Source of the DNA: Mesorhizobium sp. AR07
GTDB taxonomy: Bacteria > Pseudomonadota > Alphaproteobacteria > Rhizobiales > Rhizobiaceae
NCBI RefSeq assembly: GCF_024746815.1
Contig: NZ_CP080525.1
Coordinates: 6,194,501 to 6,258,500 of the forward strand
Direction of reading: 5' to 3'
DNA length: 64,000 nt
Made by a program: the position numbers and the translations under genes. This document shows, piece after piece, positions 48,037-64,000 of this stretch (positions within the stretch are counted from its first letter, which is position 1; each line of letters opens with the position of its first letter). Under the pieces are notes generated by a model. That model saw only the letters and a program-made list of their open reading frames with translations, did no database searches and had not been told where the DNA came from.

Positions 48037-48907
48037 CGCCTCTCTGTCCCTTCCGGACCGACAACGGTTTCCGCTACTGCGCGCACTGCTGGCCGATCCG
48101 TTCACCTGCGTCGCGCTGATCCTTGTCACCGGCTTCCTCATCACCGCCGTCTTCGCGCCGTGGCTGGCACCCTATTCGCCGCTCAAGATCGATGTGCTGC
48201 ACAAATTGCAGCCGCCATCGGTCGAACACTGGTTCGGCACCGATCATCTCGGCCGCGATCTGCTGTCGCGCGTCATCTATGGCGCGCGCACGGCGCTGAC
48301 CATCGCCATCGTGTCGGTGGCGATCGCCGGCGCGATCGGCCTGTTGCTCGGGTTGATCGCCGGCTACGGGCCGCGCTGGCTCGACGCCATTCTGGTGCTG
48401 AGCTTCGACAGCCTGAATTCGCTGCCGATGATCATGTTCGCGCTCGCCATCATCACCGTGCTCGGCGCGGGCACTGGCACGCTGATCATCGTCATCGCCG
48501 CGACCTCGTTCCCGAGCTATGCCAGACTGATTAGGGCGCAGACGCTGGCGCTGAAGAACAGCGACTATATCCTCGCCGAGCGCCTGCTCGATGCCGGTGC
48601 GGCGCGCATCATCTTCATCCACCTCCTGCCCAATGTCGTCGGCCCGCTGATCATCCTTTTGTCGATGGACATTCCGGTCGTCATCATGGTCGAGGCGGGC
48701 TTGAGCTTCCTCGGTCTCGGCGTGCGGCCGCCGACGCCGTCCTGGGGCTCGATCCTCTATGACGGCTACACCAGCATCCGTTCCGCACCCTTCATGGTCA
48801 TCTTCGGCGGCCTGCCGCTGGTGCTCGCCACCCTCGGCTTCACCTTCCTCGGCGAAGGCCTGCGCGACTATCTCGACCCGCGCCTGCAATTGCGGAGGCC
48901 GGCATGA
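48020..48907 (+). CDS. ABC transporter permease, DppC type (methylated-amine locus)
   Basis: 295 residues. The periplasmic DppC signature is VEHWFGTDHLGRDLLSRVIYGARTAL, and the EAA-like loop is ERLLDAGAARIIFIHLLPNVVGPLI. Its start lies inside the DppB-type gene and its end overlaps the next ATPase start by four bases, so the set is translationally coupled. Confidence 0.9.
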   Translation: MSSVADASLSLPDRQRFPLLRALLADPFTCVALILVTGFLITAVFAPWLAPYSPLKIDVLHKLQPPSVEHWFGTDHLGRDLLSRVIYGARTALTIAIVSVAIAGAIGLLLGLIAGYGPRWLDAILVLSFDSLNSLPMIMFALAIITVLGAGTGTLIIVIAATSFPSYARLIRAQTLALKNSDYILAERLLDAGAARIIFIHLLPNVVGPLIILLSMDIPVVIMVEAGLSFLGLGVRPPTPSWGSILYDGYTSIRSAPFMVIFGGLPLVLATLGFTFLGEGLRDYLDPRLQLRRPA

Positions 48908-49869
48908 GCGGTTCGCTCGCCGCTAGCGACCTCAGCGTCCGCTACGAGACGCCGCATGGCAGCGTGCACGCTCTGCGCCATGTCGACATCGAGGCACATC
49001 CCGGCGAGGTCATCGGCATTGTCGGCGAAAGCGGCTGCGGCAAGTCCACGCTGGTCACTGCTCTGGCAAACCTGCTGCCGGCCAACGCCCGCGTCGACGG
49101 GTCGATCAGTTACAACGGCGTCGACCTGGCCAAGCTCGACGCGCACCGCCAGCGCCTGTTGCGCGGCGACGAAATCGCGCTGGTCAGCCAGGATCCGATG
49201 ACCGCCTTCAACCCGGTGCTGACCATCGGCGACCAGCTCGTCGACTTCCAGCATCACCGCAAGGATCTCGGCCGCGCGCAGAAACGGGCGCGCATCGCCG
49301 CCATGCTCGGCCGCGTCGGCATCGCGGACGCCGAGCGGCGGATGGACAACTATCCGCATGAACTGTCCGGCGGCATGCGCCAGCGGGTGGCGATTGCCGC
49401 CGCCCTGCTGACCGATCCCGGCCTTCTTATCGCCGACGAGCCGACGACGGCGCTCGATGTCACCATGGAGGCGCAGATCATCCATCTGCTGCGTGAACTC
49501 AGGCGCGAATACAACGGCATCATCATCGTCGTCTCGCACCATCTCGGCGTCATCGCCGAGCTCTGCGACCGCGTCTATGTCATGTATGCCGGCGAGGTGG
49601 TCGAGGGCGGCGAGGTCGACGCGATCTTCCACGACGCCAGGCATCCCTATACGCAAGCGCTGCTCGCCTGCGACCCGGCCCGCTTTCACGAAAGGCTGGA
49701 CAGGCTGCCGACCATTCCCGGTTCGCTGCCCAACCTGACCCAGCCGCCGTCCGGATGCGTCTACGCGCCGCGCTGCGACCGCACCTTCGCGCCATGCGGC
49801 TCAGTCGCGCCGCCATTGGTGAAACTGCCCGCCTCGCATATGGCGCGCTGCCATGCGGTGACGCCATGA
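48904..49869 (+). CDS. ABC transporter ATPase, DppD type
   Basis: 321 residues with Walker [10 protein letters not shown], signature [15 protein letters not shown] and Walker [13 protein letters not shown]. The C-terminal oligopeptide-transporter extension has the Cys pattern [14 protein letters not shown], which may hold an iron-sulfur or metal site as in other DppD proteins. It pairs with the DppF-type ATPase that follows. Confidence 0.9.
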
Positions 49870-50894
49870 GCCCACTGCTCGCCATCGACGACCTGTCGGT
49901 GACCTTCTCACGCAAGGGCCTGCTTAGCCGGCTTATCAACCCGTTCCCGCTGCCGAGCTTCAACGTCATCGATGGCGTGACGCTGTCGCTGATGCCGGGC
50001 GAGACGCTTGGCCTGGTCGGCGAATCCGGTTCCGGCAAGACCACGCTTGCCCGCACTATCCTTGGCCTGGTGCGCGCGGCGGCCGGCCGCATCGTCTTCG
50101 AGGGCAGGGATGTGCGGACGCCGGCCGATTTCCGCGCCATGCGCCGACGCTCGGCAATGATGTTCCAGGACCCGGTGGCCTCGCTCAGCCCGCGCCTGCG
50201 CATCGGCACGCTGCTGACAGAACCGCAGATCATCCAGGGGCTGCCGATGCCGGATCGCCGCGCCGCGGCAAAAGCGCTGCTGGCGCTGGTCGGACTGCCG
50301 GCCTCCTTCGTCGACCGCTTCCCGCACGAACTGTCGGGCGGGCAGGCGCGCCGGGTTGGTGTTGCGCGGGCGCTGGCGATGAAGCCGCATCTGCTGCTCG
50401 CCGACGAGCCGACCGCCGGCCTCGATGTGTCGGTGCAGGGCGACGTGCTCAATCTGATCGGCGAATTGAAACGCGAACTCGGCTTCGCCGCCATGATCGT
50501 CACCCACAATCTGGCAATGATCCGCCATGTCAGCGATCGGCTCGCCATCATGTATCTCGGCCGGCTGGTCGAGACCGGACCGACGCAGGAGGTGTTTTCG
50601 GCGCCGATGCATCCCTACACCGCGACGCTGATCCAGTCCGAGCCGATACCCGACCCGCGCCGGCGCAGCCAGAACCCTGCCGTCAGCGGCGAGATTCCAA
50701 GTGTGTTCCGCCGCCCATCGGGCTGCGAGTTCCACACACGCTGCCCGATCGCGCGCGATCGTTGCAAGACCGATGCACCGACCTACCGACCGATGGGCAC
50801 TGATCGGATGGTGCGCTGCCATTTCCCGCTGGTATCCGGCGGGCAAGAACGGGAAGCCTTCTCACGCGCTTCCGCAAACCAAAGGGGAAACTGA
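49866..50894 (+). CDS. ABC transporter ATPase, DppF type
   Basis: 342 residues from the ATG at 49866, overlapping the DppD-type stop (ATGA); an earlier in-frame Met is within that gene. Walker A GESGSGKTT, signature LSGGQARRVGVARAL and Walker B LLLADEPTAGLD are intact. The C-terminus carries CEFHTRCPIARDRC. It is the second ATPase of the importer. Confidence 0.9.
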   Translation: MSPLLAIDDLSVTFSRKGLLSRLINPFPLPSFNVIDGVTLSLMPGETLGLVGESGSGKTTLARTILGLVRAAAGRIVFEGRDVRTPADFRAMRRRSAMMFQDPVASLSPRLRIGTLLTEPQIIQGLPMPDRRAAAKALLALVGLPASFVDRFPHELSGGQARRVGVARALAMKPHLLLADEPTAGLDVSVQGDVLNLIGELKRELGFAAMIVTHNLAMIRHVSDRLAIMYLGRLVETGPTQEVFSAPMHPYTATLIQSEPIPDPRRRSQNPAVSGEIPSVFRRPSGCEFHTRCPIARDRCKTDAPTYRPMGTDRMVRCHFPLVSGGQEREAFSRASANQRGN

Positions 50895-50895
50895 C

Positions 50896-52458
50896 ATGAC
50901 GCAATGGAACATGGACAGACGTGCATTCCTGAAAGCGGCCGGCGTGCTGGGCGCCGGCCTCGCGATGAAACCGGGTTTCGCCTGGTCGGCCGTCGGCGAC
51001 ACGTTGCGCATCCGCATGGAAGGTGATCTTCAGACCCTCGATCCTGCCTTCATGAACGGCGGCATCGAGGATGTCATCATGCGCGGCATCTATGTCACGC
51101 TGAACCATTTCGGCGACATCCAGAAAGGGTCGCCGTGGGCGCCCTGGGGCGCCGAAAAGCTCGAACAGAAAGACCCGAAAACCATCGCCTTCACCTTGAT
51201 CGATGGGCTGAAATGGTCTGGCGGTTTTGGCGCGGTCACCGCCGACGACGTAAAATTCTCGTTCGAGCGCATCGCCGACAAGGCTCTGTCGTCGCCCTGG
51301 GCCTATCAGTTCGAGAAGCTCGACCGTGTCGAGGTCGTTGATGGCAGATCCGGCATCATCCACCTGAAAGAACCCTACCAGCCGATCTTCGTCACCAGCC
51401 TACCTTACTATGGCGGCCACATCATCAGCCGCGCCGGCACCGAAAAAGCCGGCGGCAAATTCACCACCGAACCGCCGGCGACATGCGGTCCCTATCTCTT
51501 TACCGACTGGAAGCAGAAGCAGAAGGTGACGCTGACCGCCAATCCAGACTGGCCGGGACCGAAGCCGGATTTCGGCAAGGTCGAGATCTATGTCGTCGCC
51601 GACGATCAGGCAGCGCAACTGGCCTATGAGGCCGACGCCTTTGACTACACCAAGATCGCCATTTCGGCGACCAAGGCGGTCAAGGCCAAGCCGCCCGCCG
51701 ACACAACCCTGATAGAGGCGCAGTCGACCCGTTACGTCTGGCTGACCATCAACATGCTGAGCCCGCGCCTCAAGGACCTCAAGGTCCGCCAGGCCGTGCA
51801 GTATGGCGTCGATGTCGGGCAGATCCTGACCGGCGTCTATGACGATCTCACCAAGCGTTCCACGGGCGTCGTCCAGCCGGGGACCAAATTCGCGCGCGCC
51901 AGCAATCTGATCGCCGCACCTGATTATGAGAAGTCCGCTGCGCTGCTCACCGAGGCCGGCGTCAGCGACCTGTCGCTGACCTTGACGGTGATGAACGATT
52001 CCATCCGCAGCGCGACCGCCCAGATCATCCAGGCCAGCCTCGAACAGGCCGGTATCAAGGTCGACATCCAGCCCTATGACGAGGCGGCGTTCTGGGGCGT
52101 CGGCGACAAGACGCAAGGCGACGGCTACAAGAACATCGATCTGGCGCTGATGGATTTCGCCGGCGGCATCGACCCTTCCGAAAATCTGGTCTGGTTCCGC
52201 CCCGACCAGATCGGCGCCTACAACTGGTCCGGCTTCGACAGCCCCGAGTTCGAGACCAGCTATCAGCAATTGGTGGCGGAAAGCGACGAGGCCAAGCGCA
52301 TCGCATTGTCTAACCGCATGGAGGACCTGATGGAGCAATCCGGCGGTTTCGTCTTCATCTGCCACCAGCCGCTGGTCGTCATCCACAAGGCTGGTTTCGA
52401 GCCGGTCATCTATCCCGACGGCCATCCCAATCCGGTCTTGTTCAAGAAGAAGGCGTGA
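50896..52458 (+). CDS. periplasmic binding protein of the SBP_bac_5 family, Tat-type signal
   Basis: 520 residues from the ATG at 50896, directly after the DppF-type stop. The N-terminus DRRAFLKAAGVLGAGLAM is a twin-arginine (RRxFLK) signal, suggesting export in folded form. The mature part has TLRIRMEGDLQTLDPAFMNGG and LKDLKVRQAVQYGVDVGQIL, as in dipeptide/nickel-type binding proteins. It determines the importer substrate; hydrolase and demethylase neighbours suggest an N-methylated amide or peptide-like compound. Confidence 0.88.
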   Translation: MTQWNMDRRAFLKAAGVLGAGLAMKPGFAWSAVGDTLRIRMEGDLQTLDPAFMNGGIEDVIMRGIYVTLNHFGDIQKGSPWAPWGAEKLEQKDPKTIAFTLIDGLKWSGGFGAVTADDVKFSFERIADKALSSPWAYQFEKLDRVEVVDGRSGIIHLKEPYQPIFVTSLPYYGGHIISRAGTEKAGGKFTTEPPATCGPYLFTDWKQKQKVTLTANPDWPGPKPDFGKVEIYVVADDQAAQLAYEADAFDYTKIAISATKAVKAKPPADTTLIEAQSTRYVWLTINMLSPRLKDLKVRQAVQYGVDVGQILTGVYDDLTKRSTGVVQPGTKFARASNLIAAPDYEKSAALLTEAGVSDLSLTLTVMNDSIRSATAQIIQASLEQAGIKVDIQPYDEAAFWGVGDKTQGDGYKNIDLALMDFAGGIDPSENLVWFRPDQIGAYNWSGFDSPEFETSYQQLVAESDEAKRIALSNRMEDLMEQSGGFVFICHQPLVVIHKAGFEPVIYPDGHPNPVLFKKKA

Positions 52459-52502
52459 CCACTTCCGTGGACAGGAGACATGTGATCATTTAGCTGGGCT
52501 CG

Positions 52503-53183
52503 ATGACGGACAGAGAACCAGCACCTGAAAAACGCAAGCGCGGCGCCAAGAAATCGCCGCCGCGCTTCAGCCGTGAACAGGCGGATGTACGCCGTTCGAT
52601 GCTGATCGAGGCGGCGACGCGATGCCTGTCGGTCGGCGGCATCGGTGCCTTCACCATCGATCGCATCTGCAAGGAGGCCGGCGTCTCGCGCGGCCTCATC
52701 AACCATCACTTCGAAGGCCTCGATGGCTTGCTGGTCGAGGTCTACAAATCCTCGCTCTATGCCAGCGTCAACAACCAGATCGCCGAGGCCAAGCGGCGCC
52801 GCGCGGAGACGTCCGATTGGTCGCCGCAGGCAGCACTCGCTGCCTTGGTGCACTCCAATTTTTCGCCCGATTATTTCAGCCGCGACAATCTGCTGATCTG
52901 GCTGTCGCTGTGGGGCGAGATCGCCGTCAACCCGCGCCTCAAGGCGGCGCACCGCGAACTCTATGACGCCTATCGGGCGGAACTCGCCGAGGACATCGCC
53001 GCGGTCGCCGTGCCGCGTGGCAGGCAAGTCGATGCCCCGACGCTGGCGCGCAATTTCATCGCTTTGGTCGACGGGCTCTGGCTCGAATGGTGCCTCGACG
53101 AAAGCGTGGTGACGCCGCAGGCCGCCGAAGCCGCCGGCTTCGAGATGCTTGAGGCGCAAGTCGGGCCGTTGCGAGAAAGCTAG
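52503..53183 (+). CDS. BetI-like TetR-family regulator
   Basis: 226 residues. A basic N-terminal extension precedes the helix-turn-helix GIGAFTIDRICKEAGVSRGLINHHFEGLDGLLVEVY. The C-terminal domain ends with ALVDGLWLEWCLD, close to BetI, the choline-responsive repressor. It lies 44 bases after the binding-protein gene with no terminator between, so it is probably under the 45004-45045 operator. Its last four bases overlap the convergent mttB-family stop. The ligand may be a quaternary amine. Confidence 0.86.
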   Translation: MTDREPAPEKRKRGAKKSPPRFSREQADVRRSMLIEAATRCLSVGGIGAFTIDRICKEAGVSRGLINHHFEGLDGLLVEVYKSSLYASVNNQIAEAKRRRAETSDWSPQAALAALVHSNFSPDYFSRDNLLIWLSLWGEIAVNPRLKAAHRELYDAYRAELAEDIAAVAVPRGRQVDAPTLARNFIALVDGLWLEWCLDESVVTPQAAEAAGFEMLEAQVGPLRES

Positions 53184-54718
53184 TTCAGCGGCGAACCGCC
53201 CTCGCGCTTGCGGCGTTCCATGTAATCGCGCAGCGCTTCGTCGATGCCGGGATCGATCGGCGGTTGTTCGTATTCGGCGACCATGCGCTTCCACACGACA
53301 TTGGCGCGCTCGCGCGCCGTCACCTGGCCGCGCTCCATCCAGGTGTCGTAATTATCCCAGTTGGAGACCAGCGGCGAATAGAAGGCCCGCTCGTAGCGCT
53401 GCATGGTGTGCGCCGCGCCGAAGAAGTGCCCGGCCGGGCCGACCTCGCGCACCGCCTCCAGCGCCAGCGTGTCGATGTCGACCACCGGCGGGTCGAAATA
53501 GGCGCACATCATCTGCAGCATTTCGGCATCGATGACCAGTTTCTCGAATGATGCGGTCAGCCCGCCGCCGAGCCATCCGGCGGCATGCAGCACCAGATTG
53601 GCGCCGCCCATCAGGCAACCCCACAACGACATGGCGCTCTCATAGGCCGCCTGCGCGTCGACCGAATTGGCGGCGGTGACATTGCTGGAGCGGAACGGCA
53701 CCCCGATCAACCGGCACAGCTGGCCGGTGATCTGCGCGGCCTGCGTATATTCGGGCGTGCCGAAGGCCGGCGCCCCGGTCTTCATGTCGACATTGGAGGT
53801 GAAGCCGCCATACATCACCGGCACCCCGGGTCGCACGATCTGGGTCAGCACGATGCCGGCCAGCGCCTCGGCATGCTGCTGCGACAGCGCGCCGGCAAGC
53901 GTCACCGGGCTCATTGCGCCGGCCAGCGTGAAGGGCGTGATGACATTGACCTGGCCATGCTCGGCCAGCGCGATCAACCCTTCGGCCATCGGTTCGTCGA
54001 GCTGCAGCGGCGAGTTGGTGTTGATGATGCCTGTGAAGACCGGCATCTCCTGCACCAGCTTCTCGCGCGTCGTGCCCAGCGAAATCGCCACCATCTCCAG
54101 CGCGTCGACGGCGCGCCCGCGGCCGAGCGCCTGCGGCTGCCAGTTCTTGTCGAGCAAAGTGATCTCGGCATAGTAGAGGTCGAGATGGCGCGTGTTCTGG
54201 TGCAGGTCGAGCGGCTCGAACGGCCCGCCGCCTTCCTGATGCAGCACGTTGAACGACTGGATCAGTTTCAAATAGTCGCACATCTCGGCATAGGTGCCGG
54301 GACGGCGTCCGCGATCATTGTCCATGACATAGGCCGGCCCGCCGACCGACGACAGGATGCAGTGCCGCCCGCCGACCTTGACGTTCTTAGCCGGATTGCG
54401 AGCCCGCAATTCGAACGACGATGGCGCCATGGCGACGCGCTCCATGACCATGGCGCGGTCGAAGCGCACCCGCATCTCGCCTTCGTCAACGTCACAGCCC
54501 GCGGCGCGATAGAATTGCCGCGCCTGCGGCTGCAGCACGCGCATGCCGATCTCCTCGAGGATGGTCAGGCCCATCTCGTGGATCGTCCGCACCTGGTCGG
54601 CCGACAGGATTTCGATCGGCGCATAGGGCCGCGTCAGCTGCTGCCACGGCCGCTGTTCTATGCCGCCGATCTCGCGCTGCGGGCGGCCGGGTCTGCGACG
54701 TGCGGTGATGCGCTCCAT
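53180..54718 (-). CDS. non-pyrrolysine MttB-family (trimethylamine methyltransferase-like) protein
   Basis: 512 residues, usual length for COG5598. There is no in-frame TAG, so it belongs to the non-Pyl branch, which includes glycine betaine and proline betaine:corrinoid methyltransferases. Typical blocks are RTIHEMGLTILEEIGMRVL, TGIINTNSPLQLDEPM, FTLAGAMSPVTLAGALSQQHAEALAG and SSNVTAANSVDAQAAYES. It should pull one methyl group off a quaternary amine. No corrinoid protein or its reactivase is in the window. It follows the flavoprotein gene after 93 bases on the same strand. Confidence 0.88.
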   Translation of the reverse strand: MERITARRRPGRPQREIGGIEQRPWQQLTRPYAPIEILSADQVRTIHEMGLTILEEIGMRVLQPQARQFYRAAGCDVDEGEMRVRFDRAMVMERVAMAPSSFELRARNPAKNVKVGGRHCILSSVGGPAYVMDNDRGRRPGTYAEMCDYLKLIQSFNVLHQEGGGPFEPLDLHQNTRHLDLYYAEITLLDKNWQPQALGRGRAVDALEMVAISLGTTREKLVQEMPVFTGIINTNSPLQLDEPMAEGLIALAEHGQVNVITPFTLAGAMSPVTLAGALSQQHAEALAGIVLTQIVRPGVPVMYGGFTSNVDMKTGAPAFGTPEYTQAAQITGQLCRLIGVPFRSSNVTAANSVDAQAAYESAMSLWGCLMGGANLVLHAAGWLGGGLTASFEKLVIDAEMLQMMCAYFDPPVVDIDTLALEAVREVGPAGHFFGAAHTMQRYERAFYSPLVSNWDNYDTWMERGQVTARERANVVWKRMVAEYEQPPIDPGIDEALRDYMERRKREGGSPLN

Positions 54719-54811: not shown

Positions 54812-56914
54812 CTATTCGGCCGCCGTCCGCATGTCGAAATCCGCCACTTGATCGACAATCGGCGTGTCGCGGCGGTAGGGCTGCCAGCGGATTTTTGCGC
54901 CGATCTCCTGAGCAAGCTTGTGGCCGCTATGCACCGCATGGGCGATGGCTCCCGGCGCCAGCGTGTCGCCGATACGATCGACGCCGCGGATGCCGGCGGC
55001 CGCAAGCTCGCTCGCCCGCTCCGTCAGCGTCTCGAACAGCTCGCCCCGCGGTAATCTCAGCCCGACGATCAGCACCGAGCGGCAGGCCACGCGGGTTTCC
55101 TCGCCGGTGAACAGATGCGCGAGCGTCGCCGTCTCGCCGTCGAAGGATTTGAGCAGATGCAGCGTCGTTACCGGCACCTTGCGCCGCGCCAGCGCGCGAT
55201 GCACCAGCGGCAGCTCGTTGGTCATGATCGTCCAGGCGGACGCCTGGCCCGCCGGGGTCACATAGCTGACCGGGATGCCGTGCGCGGCCAGATGCTCGGT
55301 GAGAACGCCGCCCATATAGTAGTTGTCGAAATCGAAGACGAGGGTCGGTCCTTGCGGAAGCCGGCCACCGGCGATGTCGTCTGGAGTGAAGACATTGGGA
55401 TGGTCGAGCCGCCCGACCGGAATCTCCAGCGAGGAATAGAGCATATCAGTCCAGCGCGCGCCGGTCGCCAGCACGACGCGATCCGGCGCCAGGTCGATGA
55501 TCTCGTCAGCGCCCAAAACACTCTCGGGATAGAGCGTGACGTTGCTCATCTCGTTGAGGCGCCCGAGGCGGTAGTCGACGACGCGGTTCCAGGCCGAGAG
55601 GCCGGGCAACGTCTTCTCGAAGGTCAGCCGCCCGCCGAAGGTCCGGCTGCTGTCGGCGAGCGTCACTTCATGGCCGCGACGGCCAAGCGTCAGCGCGCAT
55701 TCCAGCCCGGCCGGTCCGCCGCCGACGACCAGGATCCGCTCCGGATTGTCGGTGCGCTCGACACGTTCGGGGTGCCAGCCGCGCCGCCATTCCTCGCCGG
55801 CGGTCGGGTTCTGGGTGCAACGCACCGGCACGCCATCATGCCAGCTCGAAATGCAGATGTTGCAGCCGATGCATTCGCGGATTTCAGCCTCGCGGCCCTC
55901 GCGGATCTTGTTCGGCAGGAAGGGGTCGGCGATCGAAGGCCGCGCGCCGCCGATGAAGTCCAGCACGCCCTGCCGGATCTGCGAGACCATGGTGTCGGGC
56001 GAGGTGAAGCGCCCGACACCGACCACTGGCTTTCTCGTCAGCGATTTGACGAAATCGATCACCGGCTCGTGGCTGCCTTCGCCGCTGAAGCGCGACGCCG
56101 AGCAGTCGGTCGGACTGGAATCCATCTTGACGTCGAACAGGTCCGGCAGGTCCGCGAGCAGCTCGACCAGTTCGTGCGCCTCGGAGGGCTGATTGCGGCC
56201 GGGCCGGCCGCGCAGTTCCTCGAGACTGACCCGCAGGGCGACGCCGCAATCCTTGCCGACGGCATCCTTGGTGACCTCGATCATCTCGCGCACGAAGCGC
56301 ACCCGGTTTTCGATCGGCCCGCCATAACAGTCGGAGCGATGGTTGTATTCGGGCAGCAGGAACTCGTAGCCGAGATAACCCATGCCGGCATAGACGTAGA
56401 CGATGTCGAAGCCGGCCGTGCGCGCCTTGCGCGCCGCTTCGGTCTGGCATCTTAGGACGTCGCGTATATCGGCCTTGTCCATGGTCTTTGGCCGCAAATT
56501 GCCCATGAAGCCGACATGGGTGGCCATCCACGGAATTCCCGACGGCGACAGCGGCGGCAGGCGGCTTGTCCGGTTCATCACCGATGCGCCGCCATGCCAC
56601 AATTCCACGCCGGCAAGCGCGCCATGGCGATGCACCGCCTCCGTCATCAGCGCATGCGCGCGGATATCGTTGTCGTCCCACATCGTGGCGAAAGGCAGCG
56701 GCGTGTCGTCCGAGCTGGGGTCGATCGAACAGGCCCCGGTGCAGATCACCCCCCAGCCGCCCTCGGCCTTGGCTTCGCGAAAGGCTGCGCGCACCCTGGG
56801 CAATGCGTTGGTCATGCCGCTTGCGTGCGGCACTTGATAGAAGCGGTTCGGCGCGGTGACCGGCCCGATCCGCATCGGCTCGAACAGGATTTCGTAGCGA
56901 GGATTGCAGGTCAT
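54812..56914 (-). CDS. trimethylamine-dehydrogenase-like flavoprotein, probable N-demethylase
   Basis: 700 residues from the ATG at 56914. Order of domains: FMN-binding TIM barrel (1-~335; VTAPNRFYQVPHASG, LPEYNHRSDCYGGPIENR), 4Fe-4S site CIGCNICISSWHDGVPVRC, then an FAD/NAD-type domain (ILVVGGGPAGLECALTLGRRG). This matches trimethylamine/dimethylamine dehydrogenases and N-methylproline demethylase. Odd: the Cys that links FMN covalently in trimethylamine dehydrogenase (PHCIG) is Ala here (PHASG), so FMN must be bound non-covalently. Its operator lies 11 bases upstream, and mttB follows. Confidence 0.88.
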   Translation of the reverse strand: MTCNPRYEILFEPMRIGPVTAPNRFYQVPHASGMTNALPRVRAAFREAKAEGGWGVICTGACSIDPSSDDTPLPFATMWDDNDIRAHALMTEAVHRHGALAGVELWHGGASVMNRTSRLPPLSPSGIPWMATHVGFMGNLRPKTMDKADIRDVLRCQTEAARKARTAGFDIVYVYAGMGYLGYEFLLPEYNHRSDCYGGPIENRVRFVREMIEVTKDAVGKDCGVALRVSLEELRGRPGRNQPSEAHELVELLADLPDLFDVKMDSSPTDCSASRFSGEGSHEPVIDFVKSLTRKPVVGVGRFTSPDTMVSQIRQGVLDFIGGARPSIADPFLPNKIREGREAEIRECIGCNICISSWHDGVPVRCTQNPTAGEEWRRGWHPERVERTDNPERILVVGGGPAGLECALTLGRRGHEVTLADSSRTFGGRLTFEKTLPGLSAWNRVVDYRLGRLNEMSNVTLYPESVLGADEIIDLAPDRVVLATGARWTDMLYSSLEIPVGRLDHPNVFTPDDIAGGRLPQGPTLVFDFDNYYMGGVLTEHLAAHGIPVSYVTPAGQASAWTIMTNELPLVHRALARRKVPVTTLHLLKSFDGETATLAHLFTGEETRVACRSVLIVGLRLPRGELFETLTERASELAAAGIRGVDRIGDTLAPGAIAHAVHSGHKLAQEIGAKIRWQPYRRDTPIVDQVADFDMRTAAE

Positions 56915-56925
56915 CGGAGCTTCAT

Positions 56926-56963
56926 GAATATGCTTGTTGAACGATCGTACAACAAGCATATTC
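56926..56963. promoter_or_regulatory. 38-bp palindromic operator, site 2 of the methylated-amine regulon
   Basis: Perfect 14-bp arms GAATATGCTTGTTG and CAACAAGCATATTC flank AACGATCGTA, a near-symmetric core. Compared with 45004-45045 the inner CTTGTTG-(A/T)ACGA(A/T)CGT(A/T)-CAACAAG is shared while outer arm sequences differ. It ends 11 bases before the start codon of the flavoprotein gene, the same placement as site 1. Confidence 0.75.
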
Positions 56964-57002
56964 GCACGTCGGCCCCTGCGCAATGGGCAGGGAGGCAAAC
57001 AA

Positions 57003-57036
57003 CAAAAAATCCATCCCGGCTTTCGCAGGGATGGAT
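57003..57036 (-). terminator. intrinsic terminator after the APC permease gene
   Basis: On the minus strand a perfect 9-bp stem ATCCATCCC / GGGATGGAT with a 10-base loop runs straight into TTTTTTG. A second stem (57060-57083, ACTGGGCGC / GCGCCCAGT) lies between it and the permease stop. This ends the permease transcript before the operator that starts the flavoprotein-mttB unit. Confidence 0.87.
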
Positions 57037-57095
57037 CTGAGGTCAATGAGAGGATACGGACTGGGCGCCCTTAAGCGCCCAGTCAACGGCGGACG

Positions 57096-58805
57096 TCAGA
57101 TGACGAAATACCAGTTGGCGAGCAGCATCACCGCCACGCCGGCAACCAGCGTCAGGTAGGGCAGCATTCCCGCCTTCCTGACCGCCAGATCGGACGAACT
57201 CATGCCGAGGTCGGCCAGCATATGGTCTGGGAACTTGCCACCGTCCTGGATGTAGTGGCGATAGCAGAACACCGGGATGATCAGCGCGGCGGTGATCAGT
57301 CCGGCCCACAGCGCCATCGGGTTCCACACCTTGGCGCCGGCGCCCATGAAGATGGCGTTGACATAGGCGAAGATGGCGCCGACGCCGAGCAGCCAGCTCG
57401 GCGCCTTCCACGGCCGCGCGATATGGCCGTTGTCGATGCGATGGATCCAGCCGGCGTTGAGGTTGAGGAAGTTGAAGATGATGTAGCCGCAGTTCGACAC
57501 GGCGAGGATGAAGAAGAAGCTCGTCGCGTCGGCCGAAGCGATGGCCAGCACGATCAGGTTGAAACAGAGGTCGGTCCACATGGCCCGCGTCGGCGCGCCA
57601 TGCTCGTTCACATGGCTGAGGTAGCGCGGCAGCCAGCCATCGACGGAACCCTGATAGAGCGTGCGCGAAGAACCCGCCATCGCCGTCATGATGCACAACA
57701 CCAGCGCCAGGATCATCAGCATCACCAGCAGGCTGTGGATCAGGGCTCCACCACCAACCATGCCGGCCAGCGCGTCGGCGACACCGGAGCCGTCGACGAT
57801 CGGCGTCGCCAGCATGCCGTTCAAGCCGAGTACGCCCTGGAAGGTGAACGGCACCAGGATGAACAGCAGCATGCAAAGCAGGCCGGAATAGAAGATGGCC
57901 TTGAACGTGTCGGTGCCGGGGTTCTTGAATTCGGATGTGTAGCAGACGGCAGTCTCGAAACCGTAGGTCGACCATGCCGCGATGAACATGCCGCCAAGCA
58001 CGAGCGTCCAGCCGGCAATGTTCCACGAGCCGGGCTCCGGCGCGTAGGCGGCGGCCAGCGGCACCAGCGGTGAAAAATTCGCCCAGTTGATCTGGCCGGT
58101 GACGATCGGCACGACACCGACGATCAGCATTGGGATGATGACCAGCAGGCCGATATATTTCTGCACATTGGCGGTGCCCAGGATGCCGCGATGCTGGATG
58201 GAGAAGATGATCAGCATCAGCACCGCGCCGATGAAGAAGGTTGCGTTGAGCGTGAAGGAGACCGGACCCAACGTGTGGCTGAACAGCGTCCAGTTGCGGA
58301 TCGCCGGCGTGGCGGCCGCGGTCACTGCCGTGACGGCGTCGGCGGCACTCGTGCCGGCGTGCGCCGCGATATAGGCGACGACATCGGGCGAGGCATCGGT
58401 GAACAGCGGCATCGGCGCCAGCGCGTTGAGGATATAGGCGGCAGCGATCGAGCAGCCGAGCGACAGCACCGGCGACCAAGCGAACCAGTTGCACCACACC
58501 GACAGCGGCGCGATGAATTTGGAGTAACGCAGCCAGGCGGTGGCGCCGTAGATTGAGGCGCCGCCCGACTTGTTCGGGAACAGGCCGGCGATCTCGGCAT
58601 AGGTGAAGGATTGCAGGAAGCCCATGATCATGGAGAAGATCCAGATCGCGAAGGCCAGCGTGCCGGTCGTGCCGGCAATGCCGCCGATCGAAAACAGGAC
58701 GAGGGCCGGGACGCCGCTTGCCACCCAGAAGGCGCCGCGCCAGTCGATGTTCCGGTGCAGCTTGCTTTCGGCAGGCTGCTCCAGTGCAGTGCTTATCGTG
58801 CTCAT
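57096..58805 (-). CDS. APC-superfamily amino acid/amine permease
   Basis: 569 residues with twelve to fourteen membrane segments, larger than the usual ~450-500. Helix 1 has the APC ligand-binding break in GVPALVLFSIGGIAGTTG, followed by FAIWIFSMIMGFLQSFTYAEIAGLFPNKSGGASIYG. The final segments lie near LPYLTLVAGVAVMLLANWYFVI. It probably imports an amino acid betaine or amine used by the demethylases either side. It is separated from the flavoprotein gene by a terminator, so it is its own transcript. Confidence 0.87.
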   Translation of the reverse strand: MSTISTALEQPAESKLHRNIDWRGAFWVASGVPALVLFSIGGIAGTTGTLAFAIWIFSMIMGFLQSFTYAEIAGLFPNKSGGASIYGATAWLRYSKFIAPLSVWCNWFAWSPVLSLGCSIAAAYILNALAPMPLFTDASPDVVAYIAAHAGTSAADAVTAVTAAATPAIRNWTLFSHTLGPVSFTLNATFFIGAVLMLIIFSIQHRGILGTANVQKYIGLLVIIPMLIVGVVPIVTGQINWANFSPLVPLAAAYAPEPGSWNIAGWTLVLGGMFIAAWSTYGFETAVCYTSEFKNPGTDTFKAIFYSGLLCMLLFILVPFTFQGVLGLNGMLATPIVDGSGVADALAGMVGGGALIHSLLVMLMILALVLCIMTAMAGSSRTLYQGSVDGWLPRYLSHVNEHGAPTRAMWTDLCFNLIVLAIASADATSFFFILAVSNCGYIIFNFLNLNAGWIHRIDNGHIARPWKAPSWLLGVGAIFAYVNAIFMGAGAKVWNPMALWAGLITAALIIPVFCYRHYIQDGGKFPDHMLADLGMSSSDLAVRKAGMLPYLTLVAGVAVMLLANWYFVI

Positions 58806-59056: not shown

Positions 59057-61426
59057 TCAGGAGCGCGGCTTGGTCTTCTGCGGATCGTAATGGGCAAAGG
59101 CGACGACGCGCGCAGGCAGCCGCTTGGCATGGCCGTCGAGCTTGCCTATCTCGACCTCGGTGCCGACAGCCGAATGCGTGACGTCGAGCCGCGCCAGCGC
59201 GATGGTCTTGTTCAGCACCGGCGAGCGCATGCCTGAGGTGACCACGCCGATCTGGGCGCGGCCGACATGCACGCAATCGCCATGGCCGACAGCGACGTTG
59301 GCGTCGATGTCGAGGCCGACCAGTTTTGTCTGCGGGTTTTCCTTGCGCCGGATCAGCGCCTCGCGGCCGATGAAATCGTCGGTCTTGGTTTTCAGCGGTA
59401 CGGTGAAGCCAATGCCGGCCTCGAACGGATCGGTCTGGTCCGAGAATTCGTAAGCTGCGAAGATCAGCCCGGCCTCGATGCGCACCATGTCGAGCGCTTG
59501 CAGCCCCATCGGCTTCAGCCCGTGCGGCTGGCCGGCCTCCCAGATCGCGTCGAACACTTTTTCGGCGTCGCGTGGATGGCACCAGATCTCGTAGCCCAAC
59601 TCGCCGGTATAGCCGGTGCGCGAGATGACGACCGGAATACCGTTGCCGCCGCCGATGCGAGCAACAGCGAAGCGGAACCACTCGAGCTCGTCCATCGACG
59701 GCTGCAATGGCGAGGTCCAGATGACTTCCCTAAGGATGTCGCGGCTCTTCGGCCCCTGCACGGCGACATTGTGCATCTGGTCGGTGGAGGAGCGCACCAG
59801 CACGTTGAGGCCAAGTTTTGTCGCGGTCTCACGCAGCCATTCGCCGGACAGATCGTCGCCGCCAACCCAGCGGAAATTGTCCTTGCCGAGCCGCAGCAGC
59901 GTGCCGTCATCGATCATGCCGCCATGCTCGTAGCACATCGCGGAATAGACGACCTGACCGACGCCAAGCTTCTTGACGTCGCGGGTCAGCGTGTATTGCA
60001 GCAGCGCTTCCGAGTCCGGGCCGGTGACCTCGAACTTGCGCAGCGGCGACAGGTCCATGATCACCGCGTCCTGCCGGCAGGCCCAGTATTCGGCGATCGG
60101 CCCGTCCTTGGCGAAGGAATTGGCCAGCCAATAGCCCCGATACTCGACGAAGTTGCGGGTGTGCTTGGCAAAGCTCGAATGAAATGAAGTCTCGCGGGTC
60201 ATTTTCGGTTCCGAATCAGGCGTCATGCGTCTTGCGATCGCTCGCGAGAATTTGTGCTGGCCGAAATAGGTCCGCACATGGATGTCGGTCAGGTTCCAGC
60301 CATTGGCCGGTGTCGTGTCGTCGGGGCAGGCTGAGGACACGCAGACGATGTCGGTCAGCGCCCGCAACAGCACATAGTCGCCGGCGCGCGACCATGGTTC
60401 GTCGGACACCATGACGCCGTGCGCGTCGATCGCGGTGTTGAAGAAGAAGTTGATCGCCATCCAGCCGGCGCGCGGATTGACGCCCTTGTCGGCCAGAGCG
60501 CGGTTGAAATTCTCCGAGCAGTTGGTGTGGCCGGGATAGCCGATGTCGTCGTAATACTTCGCGGCGCAAGCGAGCGCGAACGCATCGTGCCGGCCACAGG
60601 TGTCCTGCACCACCTCCACCAGCGGCTCCATGTCCTGGTCATAATATTTCGAATGCAGGCCGGGCATCGGATAACTCGCACCCATCAGCGTGCGCGTCGT
60701 CGTCACGTCGAGCGGATGGTCGCGGCCCTTGTCCAGCTTGCGCGCTGAAAAGCACTGGAAGTCGGTGCATTGGCGCCCGTCGACATCGATGATCTGCAGA
60801 TAGTCGCCAGCCCTAACGAAATAGGATTCCGCCGTCGCCGAATGGACGCGCAGGTCGAGCACCGGGTCGGCGAGCGGATCGGCCAATTGCGATTTCGCCG
60901 CCGGGCGGATGGTGGCGCGCCGGACGATGACACTGAGCGGCGTCGCCGTGTCGTGGCCATCGACCAGCATCGGCCCGCCGGGGGCGGCGATGACCATCGC
61001 GCCGTCGCGTGCAACGGTGAAAGCCTGTTCGGTACCTGCGGGCGTGGTGCCACCGAACGCGCGCACGGCCTTCGCCTGATCAAGCTGCACCTGCCGGCGC
61101 TCAAGGCCACGGCGCAGGGTTGCGAGACTATCGTCGCCCGCGGCCAGCAGCGCCTTGATGCCGGCTGCATTGCTGTTGGTAGTTTCACCGAAAATGCCAG
61201 GGTCTGTCGCGCCGCTCCTGTCCCATGCCAGCAACTCGCAGGCCTGGCCGCCCTCGACATTGCGCACGGTAAGGGTGTCGCCGGCCTCGACCTCGATGAA
61301 CACCGCGCCGTTGCCCTGGATCGTATAGCGCTCCATACCGGGCGGCAGCGCGATCTGGCCGGGCCTCAGGATAAGGCTCGGCCTCGGCGGTCCAGCGGCA
61401 ATTGCAGGGTAGGGCGACGGGCTCAT
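59057..61426 (-). CDS. DUF1989-GcvT fusion, probable folate-dependent demethylase
   Basis: 789 residues. Residues ~15-400 hold two DUF1989-type (urea-carboxylase-associated) cupin-like halves, e.g. IEVEAGDTLTVRNVEGGQACELLAWD and VRAGDYLQIIDVDGRQCTDFQCF, with TNCSENFNRAL and GWMAINFFFNTAID. Residues ~410-789 are a GcvT/aminomethyltransferase domain (RGYWLANSFAKDG, CRQDAVIMDLSPLRKFEVTGPD, GYTGELGYEIW), which binds tetrahydrofolate and accepts one-carbon units. It has no flavin domain of its own, so it probably works with a partner oxidase. Soluble, minus strand, 376 bases downstream of soxG. Confidence 0.84.
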   Translation of the reverse strand: MSPSPYPAIAAGPPRPSLILRPGQIALPPGMERYTIQGNGAVFIEVEAGDTLTVRNVEGGQACELLAWDRSGATDPGIFGETTNSNAAGIKALLAAGDDSLATLRRGLERRQVQLDQAKAVRAFGGTTPAGTEQAFTVARDGAMVIAAPGGPMLVDGHDTATPLSVIVRRATIRPAAKSQLADPLADPVLDLRVHSATAESYFVRAGDYLQIIDVDGRQCTDFQCFSARKLDKGRDHPLDVTTTRTLMGASYPMPGLHSKYYDQDMEPLVEVVQDTCGRHDAFALACAAKYYDDIGYPGHTNCSENFNRALADKGVNPRAGWMAINFFFNTAIDAHGVMVSDEPWSRAGDYVLLRALTDIVCVSSACPDDTTPANGWNLTDIHVRTYFGQHKFSRAIARRMTPDSEPKMTRETSFHSSFAKHTRNFVEYRGYWLANSFAKDGPIAEYWACRQDAVIMDLSPLRKFEVTGPDSEALLQYTLTRDVKKLGVGQVVYSAMCYEHGGMIDDGTLLRLGKDNFRWVGGDDLSGEWLRETATKLGLNVLVRSSTDQMHNVAVQGPKSRDILREVIWTSPLQPSMDELEWFRFAVARIGGGNGIPVVISRTGYTGELGYEIWCHPRDAEKVFDAIWEAGQPHGLKPMGLQALDMVRIEAGLIFAAYEFSDQTDPFEAGIGFTVPLKTKTDDFIGREALIRRKENPQTKLVGLDIDANVAVGHGDCVHVGRAQIGVVTSGMRSPVLNKTIALARLDVTHSAVGTEVEIGKLDGHAKRLPARVVAFAHYDPQKTKPRS

Positions 61427-61802: not shown

Positions 61803-62426
61803 TCATTCCTCCGAATGCGTGATCGTCACCCCATATTCCGCAGCCGCGTCAAGCATCGTGTGCCACAGGCTTTCGGCGAAGGTCGCGAACACCAGAAGGT
61901 TGAAAACTGCCTGCCCATCCGGCCGGTCGCCACCGCGCCAGAGCGCGATGCTGGTGTGGTCCATCGAGGTCGCGGCAGCCGCTCCAACCGGGAATGCCGC
62001 CGGATGCAGGTCGATCGACGACAGCTTGGCCAGCATGGCGCGTGCCTTGGCGCCCGAGATGCTGATCAGGGCGCGGGCGTGCGACTGGTCCGACAGCGAG
62101 GCGGGGCCGGACAATGCCGGCGCCAGCGTGCCCATCGTATGCCTGCCGCCCTTCGACAGGACGAAGACCTGATCCGGCCCGGACCAGATCAGCGTGGCGT
62201 CCTGAGATTGCACCGCCTTGGGCGCATCCGGGGCAGGAATGCCGAAACGGGTCTCGGTCGCCCTTGCCAGCTCTGTCGCTTTGCCGCGCCGCGCCATCAC
62301 CTGGATCAGGTCGAAATTGCGGACTTCCGTCAGCGACACGCCGGCCTCGACGCCGCGCGCACCATGCGCGCCGGTGACAAGTGCATGCTCCAGCGGACTG
62401 CGAGTAACCCAGGAAAACTCAGCCAC
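61803..62426 (-). CDS. soxG: heterotetrameric sarcosine oxidase, gamma subunit
   Basis: 207 residues from a GTG at 62426, with GGAGGG 8 bases upstream; that start overlaps the soxA stop. The GcvT-like small subunit is recognised by VTRSPLEHALVTGAHGARGVEAGVSLTEVRNFDLIQVMAR and the C-terminal FPVGAAAATSMDHTSIALWR...FATFAESLWHTMLDAAAEYGV. It is the last gene of a soxBDAG-type operon reading from beyond the window. Confidence 0.88.
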   Translation of the reverse strand: MAEFSWVTRSPLEHALVTGAHGARGVEAGVSLTEVRNFDLIQVMARRGKATELARATETRFGIPAPDAPKAVQSQDATLIWSGPDQVFVLSKGGRHTMGTLAPALSGPASLSDQSHARALISISGAKARAMLAKLSSIDLHPAAFPVGAAAATSMDHTSIALWRGGDRPDGQAVFNLLVFATFAESLWHTMLDAAAEYGVTITHSEE

Positions 62427-64000
62427 GCTGGCGCCCTCCATCCGGATCGTAGAAGACGGGATTGCACAGCTCGACATCATAGTCCTCGCCGCGCAGCGGG
62501 TCGTGCGCATGGACGATCTCGCCGATGCGTTCGCGGCCACGTTCGACAAGGCCGAGCCCGATCCACTGATCTGATGTCGGCGAGAAGCAGACCGAGGTGA
62601 CATAGCCCTGGTCGTTGCCCGGTCCGGGTGCCTGGCCCTTCGGGATGATGTGCGCGCCGGAGCGCAAGCGGCGTGCCTTGTCGACTGGCTTGATGCCGAC
62701 CACCACCTGGCGGTCCGGAGCAACCAGCGCCTCGCGGCCGGCCATGACGCGGCCGATAAAATCCTTCTTGGTCGACATCATCTTGCCGAGACCAAGATCG
62801 GCCGCGGTGGTCGTGCCGCTCAATTCCGGTCCGGCGATGTGGCCCTTTTCGACGCGCATGACACCGAGCGCCTCGGTGCCGTAGGGCGTGACGCCGAATA
62901 GCGCGCCGGCCAGCATCAGATTGCGTGCCATGGCGTCGCCGAAGCGTGCCGGCACCGAAATCTCGAATGCCATTTCGCCGGAGAAGGAGATGCGGAACAG
63001 CCGCGCCTTGATGCCGCCGCGAAGCGCGACTTCGCGCGCGCCCATGAACGGAAAGCCTTCGTTGGACAGGTCCTCGGCCGGATCGACAATCTCCCTGAGC
63101 AAGTCCCGCGTCTTCGGCCCGGCGATCGAGAATTGCGCCCACTGGTCGGAGACCGAGGTCAACTGCACATCGAGTTCGGGAAACAGCACCTGCCTGCAGA
63201 ATTCGAGATGCTGCATAACAAGTCCGGCCTTGGCCGTCGTGGTCGTCAGGAAATAGTGATCCTCGGCCAGCCGCGACGTGGTGCCGTCGTCATAGACGAT
63301 GCCATCCTCGCGCAGCATCAGCCCATAGCGGGCCTTGCCGACGGCGAGGTTAGAGAAGGTGTTGATGTAGACGCGGTCGAGGAAGGCACCGGCATCCGGG
63401 CCGTGCACGTCGATCTTGCCGAGCGTCGAGACATCGCAGAAGCCGACGCCGCCGCGCACCGCCTTGACCTCACGGGTGACCGATTCCAGCCAGTCCTTCT
63501 CGCCGGTGCGCGGATACCATTGCGCGCGCTTCCACAGGCCGGTGTCGACGAAGACAGCACCCTGTTCCGCCGCCCAATGATGCGACGGCGTCAGCCGCGT
63601 CGCGTGGAACGTCTCGTCGCGGTGATGACCGGCAAAGGCGCCGATCGCGACCGGCACATAGGGTGGGCGGTAGATCGTGGTGCCGGTCTCGGGAATGGAT
63701 CGGCCGCTGACCGCGGCCATGATGGCGAGGCCGGCGACATTCGAGGTTTTGCCCTGGTCGGTGGCCATGCCGAGCGTCGTGTAACGCTTCAGATGCTCGA
63801 CCGATTCAAAGCCTTCGCGTTGCGCCAGCTCGATGTCAGAGGCGGTGACGTCATGTTGGTAATCGACAAATGCTTTTCCCTTTCCGGCGACGTGCCAGAG
63901 CGGTGTGAGCGAGAAGGCTTCGCTATCGGCGACAGGCGCCGTGCCTGCCTTGCCGCTGCGCCCGGCATCAAGCGCGGCTGCCCCGCCCGCGGCAAACCCT
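62419..64000 (-). CDS. soxA: heterotetrameric sarcosine oxidase, alpha subunit, C-terminal part
   Basis: The frame is open to the window edge, so the N-terminal dinucleotide-binding domain is only partly present (GGAAALDAGRSG...PLWHVAGKGKAFVDYQHDVTASDIELA). The visible part has the HLKRYTTLGMATDQGKTSNV block and the whole GcvT-like tetrahydrofolate domain (WYPRTGEKDWLESV, VRGGVGFCDVSTLGKIDVHGPDAGAFLDRVY). The enzyme oxidises sarcosine to glycine, H2O2 and 5,10-methylene-tetrahydrofolate. It overlaps soxG. Sarcosine would be a late intermediate of betaine breakdown. Confidence 0.92.
   Translation of the reverse strand, partial: GFAAGGAAALDAGRSGKAGTAPVADSEAFSLTPLWHVAGKGKAFVDYQHDVTASDIELAQREGFESVEHLKRYTTLGMATDQGKTSNVAGLAIMAAVSGRSIPETGTTIYRPPYVPVAIGAFAGHHRDETFHATRLTPSHHWAAEQGAVFVDTGLWKRAQWYPRTGEKDWLESVTREVKAVRGGVGFCDVSTLGKIDVHGPDAGAFLDRVYINTFSNLAVGKARYGLMLREDGIVYDDGTTSRLAEDHYFLTTTTAKAGLVMQHLEFCRQVLFPELDVQLTSVSDQWAQFSIAGPKTRDLLREIVDPAEDLSNEGFPFMGAREVALRGGIKARLFRISFSGEMAFEISVPARFGDAMARNLMLAGALFGVTPYGTEALGVMRVEKGHIAGPELSGTTTAADLGLGKMMSTKKDFIGRVMAGREALVAPDRQVVVGIKPVDKARRLRSGAHIIPKGQAPGPGNDQGYVTSVCFSPTSDQWIGLGLVERGRERIGEIVHAHDPLRGEDYDVELCNPVFYDPDGGRQRG

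Follow-up and report, generated by a model that had tools for sequence, protein, structure and literature searches.

What does a protein do that joins a DUF1989 domain to a GcvT domain? A gene for such a fusion lies at positions 59057–61426 (minus strand) of the stretch of the Mesorhizobium sp. AR07 genome analysed here (64,000 nucleotides; hereafter, the window), next to genes that an initial annotation, made from the sequence alone, had read as soxA and soxG.

Identity of the DUF1989–GcvT fusion

The gene is a single ATG-start open reading frame (ORF) of 789 aa with no internal stops, in which a Pfam search detected a DUF1989 domain (173.6 bits; best stretch, residues 194–361), a GCV_T domain (226.9 bits; residues 418–674), and a GCV_T_C domain (59.7 bits; residues 701–781), and no flavin domain, bearing out the initial description of a fusion that lacks one. 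Searched by themselves, residues 1–176 gave a second, degenerate DUF1989 match just below the Pfam cut-off (25.2 vs 27 bits). The part of PMC12560246 that was consulted divides the trimethylamine N-oxide (TMAO) demethylase of Methylocella silvestris, Tdm, into three domains (DUF1989-like, DUF1989, and GcvT); a first part that falls below the cut-off is expected from this description, and the same three-part layout is present in the protein from the window.

Full-length comparisons point to this enzyme. The protein exceeded the cut-off of the NCBIfam equivalog model for trimethylamine N-oxide demethylase (NF053776; 1262.1 vs 1100 bits), with residues 23–788 covering profile positions 5–762 of 763, and a phmmer search against PDB sequences aligned residues 2–789 to 9q59 and 9q5l (1189.3 bits) and to 9q5a (1182 bits), all of them named trimethylamine N-oxide demethylase. 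As the alignment to these solved chains spans residues 2–789, both start and end of the ORF appear correct, and chance or a frame artefact is ruled out as its origin. In domain order and full length, the protein is like the Tdm of M. silvestris BL2 and Ruegeria pomeroyi, the NF053776 family, and the three PDB chains. From its sequence, the gene is thus almost certainly tdm, with the following parts:

59057–61426, minus strand: tdm, predicted trimethylamine N-oxide demethylase, 789 aa (NCBIfam NF053776; PDB 9q59, 9q5l, 9q5a)
60887–61426, minus strand: N-terminal degenerate DUF1989-like region, approximately residues 1–180 (Pfam, 25.2 bits, below cut-off; domain described in the consulted part of PMC12560246)
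60344–60847, minus strand: putative metal-binding DUF1989 domain, residues 194–361 (Pfam and residue mapping)
59405–60175, minus strand: GcvT folate-type domain, residues 418–674 (Pfam GCV_T)
59084–59326, minus strand: GcvT C-terminal barrel, residues 701–781 (Pfam GCV_T_C)

What looked like a new fusion is settled as an orthologue of a characterised and structurally solved enzyme; it is already known, and ordinary. The two-component demethylase initially envisaged gives way to a known single-polypeptide enzyme. Our literature search found no paper on PDB entries 9q59, 9q5l, or 9q5a, and none from 2023 on that combined TMAO demethylase, formaldehyde, and tunnel.

Other identities were tried and rejected. 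The protein stayed below the cut-offs of the NCBIfam models for glycine cleavage GcvT (215.3 vs 235.85, 254.4 vs 300, and 149.8 vs 459 bits) and for the urea-carboxylase-associated proteins UAAP2 (100.6 vs 284.7 bits) and UAAP1 (53 vs 205.95 bits). A dimethylglycine or sarcosine oxidase was dismissed on the lack, in Pfam, of an FAD-binding domain joined to GcvT and on a score below the NCBIfam soxA cut-off (173.2 vs 1164 bits). The GcvT folate domain does have homologues in dimethylglycine oxidase and dehydrogenase (1pj5, 5l46; 133 and 118 bits), but where these enzymes carry an FAD oxidase half, the Tdm of the window has its presumed metal-binding DUF1989 half. Among 25 matches to Tdm in its own genome, the ORF at 59057–61426 was the sole full-length one; the other 24 were partial (GcvT half, 23; DUF1989 half, one).

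Residues of the predicted metal site

The N-terminal half had been expected to bind a metal or an amine, and residues reported for the metal site of Tdm are present in it. According to the consulted part of PMC12560246, zinc in M. silvestris Tdm is bound by C263, C279, and C343, iron is placed near H276 and D346, and D198 is implicated by mutagenesis credited to Zhu et al. 2016. All six residues have counterparts of the same type at a constant offset of +24—D222, C287, H300, C303, C367, and D370—and these sit in the DUF1989 domain (194–361) or just past it. None of 19 other offsets tested (15 to 34) fitted all six. From the offset alone, M. silvestris Tdm would have 24 fewer residues before the metal site; the two proteins also differ at M. 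silvestris F487 and A344, which are L511 and P368 here.

Every one of the 81 aligned Tdm (the window's and the best 80 of 579 relatives) has all six residues, an invariance that is modest evidence by itself, since the aligned proteins are close relatives (69.8–95.8% identical to the Tdm of the window). While the residues are observed directly, the metals themselves, the reaction, and the folate step considered below are carried over from the characterised enzyme. By this analogy, Tdm would take one methyl group off TMAO at the DUF1989 metal site, yielding dimethylamine and formaldehyde; as the N-oxide itself brings the oxidising equivalent, neither flavin nor O2 would be needed.

Gene neighbourhood of tdm and related loci

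The genes that flank tdm within the window are as follows:

62419–64000, minus strand: putative mgdC (SoxA-like), which leaves the window (complete, 993 aa, in L009:3419–6400)
61803–62423, minus strand: putative mgdD, SoxG-like (Pfam SoxG, 46.8 bits; cut-off 21) and, from its place in the gene order, a subunit of N-methylglutamate dehydrogenase
57096–58805, minus strand: tmoP, TMAO permease, 569 aa (NCBIfam NF053774, 892.5 bits; cut-off 690)
54812–57046, minus strand, likely start at 56911: flavoprotein like TMA dehydrogenase (TMADH) or histamine dehydrogenase (closest solved structures 6l6j, 3k30, 6de6, 1djq/1djn)
53180–54718, minus strand: MttB-superfamily methyltransferase, 512 aa (closest to 4yyc, 2qne, and glycine betaine methyltransferase 9yce)
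48904–53183, plus strand: Opp/Dpp-like ABC transporter ATPases, family 5 solute-binding protein, and BetI-like TetR regulator (facing the MttB-like and flavoprotein genes)

Downstream, tmoP adjoins tdm on the same strand. Upstream, the order towards tdm is mgsA, mgsB, mgsC, gmaS, mgdA, mgdB, mgdC, mgdD, and the supposed soxA and soxG are best read as mgdC and mgdD, the end of an mgsABC–gmaS–mgdABCD cluster that would process methylamine via N-methylglutamate. Full-length MgdC passes the NCBIfam soxA model (1531.8 vs 1164 bits) and MgdD falls under that for soxG (95.9 vs 143.95 bits); the GmaS candidate passes the type III glutamate–ammonia ligase model (678.1 vs 469.6 bits) and the MgdA candidate the SoxB model (696.7 vs 529.45 bits). 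Matches of the three Mgs candidates to glutamate synthase, formylmethanofuran dehydrogenase subunit C, and amidotransferase models were all below cut-off, and mgdB is a 91-aa ORF named from place and size alone. The names are therefore a reading, drawn from domain matches (weak for mgs), the order of the genes, and the cluster that the consulted part of PMC4543880 describes. On this reading, the neighbours encode N-methylglutamate dehydrogenase and not sarcosine oxidase, which was rejected as a partner of Tdm because the SoxAG-like genes are part of the mgd cluster. With the Tdm equivalog match, the TMAO permease, and the N-methylglutamate pathway genes, the initial picture of an amine demethylase in an amine gene cluster was right in outline.

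Approximately 14–20 kb upstream of tdm, the other strand encodes a DmmD-like GcvT protein, a DmmA-family protein (116.9 bits; cut-off 60), a ferredoxin-reductase-like protein, an HODM-like protein (Pfam, 241.8 bits; no NCBIfam match up to E 1e-10), and then trimethylamine monooxygenase (Tmm; NCBIfam NF058570, 849.5 vs 675 bits, with structure matches too). When the DmmD-like protein was compared with PDB sequences, the Tdm chains came first (176 bits). Given the tmm, dmm, tdm, tmoP, and mgs–gmaS–mgd genes in this neighbourhood, the known TMA–TMAO–DMA–MMA pathway appears complete at the Mesorhizobium locus, as judged from the encoded proteins. TMAO would be imported by the neighbouring TmoP or made by Tmm from trimethylamine. 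The next steps would fall to enzymes with genes in the vicinity: Dmm for dimethylamine, and GmaS, Mgs, and Mgd for methylamine.

The pathway is described in Ruegeria (PMC5520151, PMC13390433; consulted in part), and Tdm clusters described earlier likewise have a TMAO permease and methylamine-pathway neighbours. The methylotrophy or TMA islands known from Paracoccus and from Roseobacter-clade bacteria (PMC4543880, PMC5520151, PMC13390433, as far as consulted) have tmm, tdm, tmoP, dmmDABC, gmaS, mgsABC, and mgdABCD in common with the present locus, which differs in its Mesorhizobium host and in having mgsABC–gmaS–mgdABCD–tdm–tmoP on one strand and dmm and tmm on the other. A literature search joining Mesorhizobium, trimethylamine N-oxide, and tdm found no paper.

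For comparison, we took the best 80 of 579 confirmed matches, a set of loci thereby biased to close relatives (the nearest being Mesorhizobium, with up to 96% identity), and dropped locus matches that covered <40% of the query or overlapped a better match by >30%. Among these 80 loci, tmoP lay ≤1500 bp from tdm in 42, mgdD did so in 39, and 37 had both; at least one of tmoP, mgdD, gmaS, and the DmmD-like gene was present in 64. None of these four was found near tdm in 16 of the 80, of which 14 are cut by contig ends and two (L059, L064) have full 10 kb flanks. In L028 (Mesorhizobium sp. L2C084A000), mgdC gave two matches instead of one (93% and 97% identity), which may reflect a frameshift or a split gene.

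Could sarcosine, dimethylglycine, or a quaternary amine instead be the substrate, and the protein a new demethylase whose partner is a sarcosine oxidase or the TMADH-like flavoprotein (the latter named as a possible partner in the initial annotation)? The flavoprotein and MttB-like genes, downstream and on the same strand, would fit such a role. Across the best 80 of 579 loci, however, this pair follows tmoP in only three (L014, L021, L033), against 64 of 80 with at least one pathway gene, and the flavoprotein occurs in two of the 60 loci with at least 8 kb downstream; one more MttB-like match (38% identity) lies in L081. The two proteins were accordingly rejected as functional partners. With the SoxAG-like genes assigned to the mgd cluster and the protein itself over the Tdm equivalog cut-off, we regard a demethylase for another amine as very improbable.

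The genes at 48904–53183 are possibly a separate quaternary-amine cassette. In L014 and L021, as here, the TetR and solute-binding genes adjoin those for the MttB-like protein and the flavoprotein. Lacking an in-frame stop, the MttB-like protein is not of the pyrrolysine type. The genome holds seven MttB-family matches vs two B12-binding_2 matches, one of which (C1:1401810) is close to an MttB gene (C1:1399927–1401426); neither is near the window. In TMADH, a cysteine binds FMN covalently, and at its motif position the flavoprotein has the alanine of VPHA.

The GcvT half and folate

The idea that the C-terminal half moves carbon to folate came close to the published picture: the domain is of the folate type, and folate capture may take place. 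As reported in the consulted part of PMC12560246, F487 and L618 of M. silvestris Tdm replace Y101 and R223 of E. coli GcvT, from which tetrahydrofolate (THF) coordination as in GcvT was inferred to be impossible and THF use in Tdm probably vestigial. In our HMMER alignments, read by eye, the equivalents of Y101 and R223 in the Tdm of the window are L511 and L645. The two columns hold Y and R in 1yx2 (B. subtilis GcvT) and in 1woo, which we take to be the T. maritima GcvT, and A and F in dimethylglycine oxidase (1pj5), whose entries 1pj6 and 1pj7 presumably hold folates. The loss of folate-binding residues, which the initial annotation had named as evidence against its reading, is thus partly seen here and is not decisive: as dimethylglycine oxidase is without both contacts too, their absence does not by itself exclude THF binding, which weakens the published argument that it rules out THF coordination.

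Does Tdm then do without folate, its GcvT half serving only as a module for structure or oligomerisation while all formaldehyde is released? All 81 Tdm (the window's and the best 80 of 579 relatives) have L at position 645, whereas position 511 is L in 58, F in 22, and V in one, as such a module would allow, and the vestigial role argued in the literature agrees. Against this stand the acidic residues D506, D507, E609, and E613, kept in all 81, and a GcvT half nearly as conserved as the DUF1989 half (mean majority share, 0.879 vs 0.913). R at the 645 column is likewise found in none of eight other GcvT-domain proteins of the same genome, among which no glycine-cleavage GcvT is known. Moreover, THF slightly lowers formaldehyde release, as the consulted part of PMC12560246 relates, citing Zhu et al. 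2016. A Tdm without any folate use is hence conceivable, yet we doubt it.

A small tree, meant as a check only, comprised 15 of the 81 Tdm and eight distinct other proteins: seven of the 25 own-genome matches (among them L002, the DmmD-like protein) and mgdC, with the genome's other GcvT-domain matches left out. All 15 Tdm GcvT halves grouped together (support 0.905).

By analogy, the GcvT half may hand part of the formaldehyde to THF. Whether, throughout the Tdm family, it binds THF without the Tyr/Arg contacts, as dimethylglycine oxidase appears to, and captures formaldehyde from the DUF1989 half is in our view evenly poised. What the GcvT half does with formaldehyde is a question for the whole family, and, if such capture is true, the fusion would be a detoxifying channel and no vestige.
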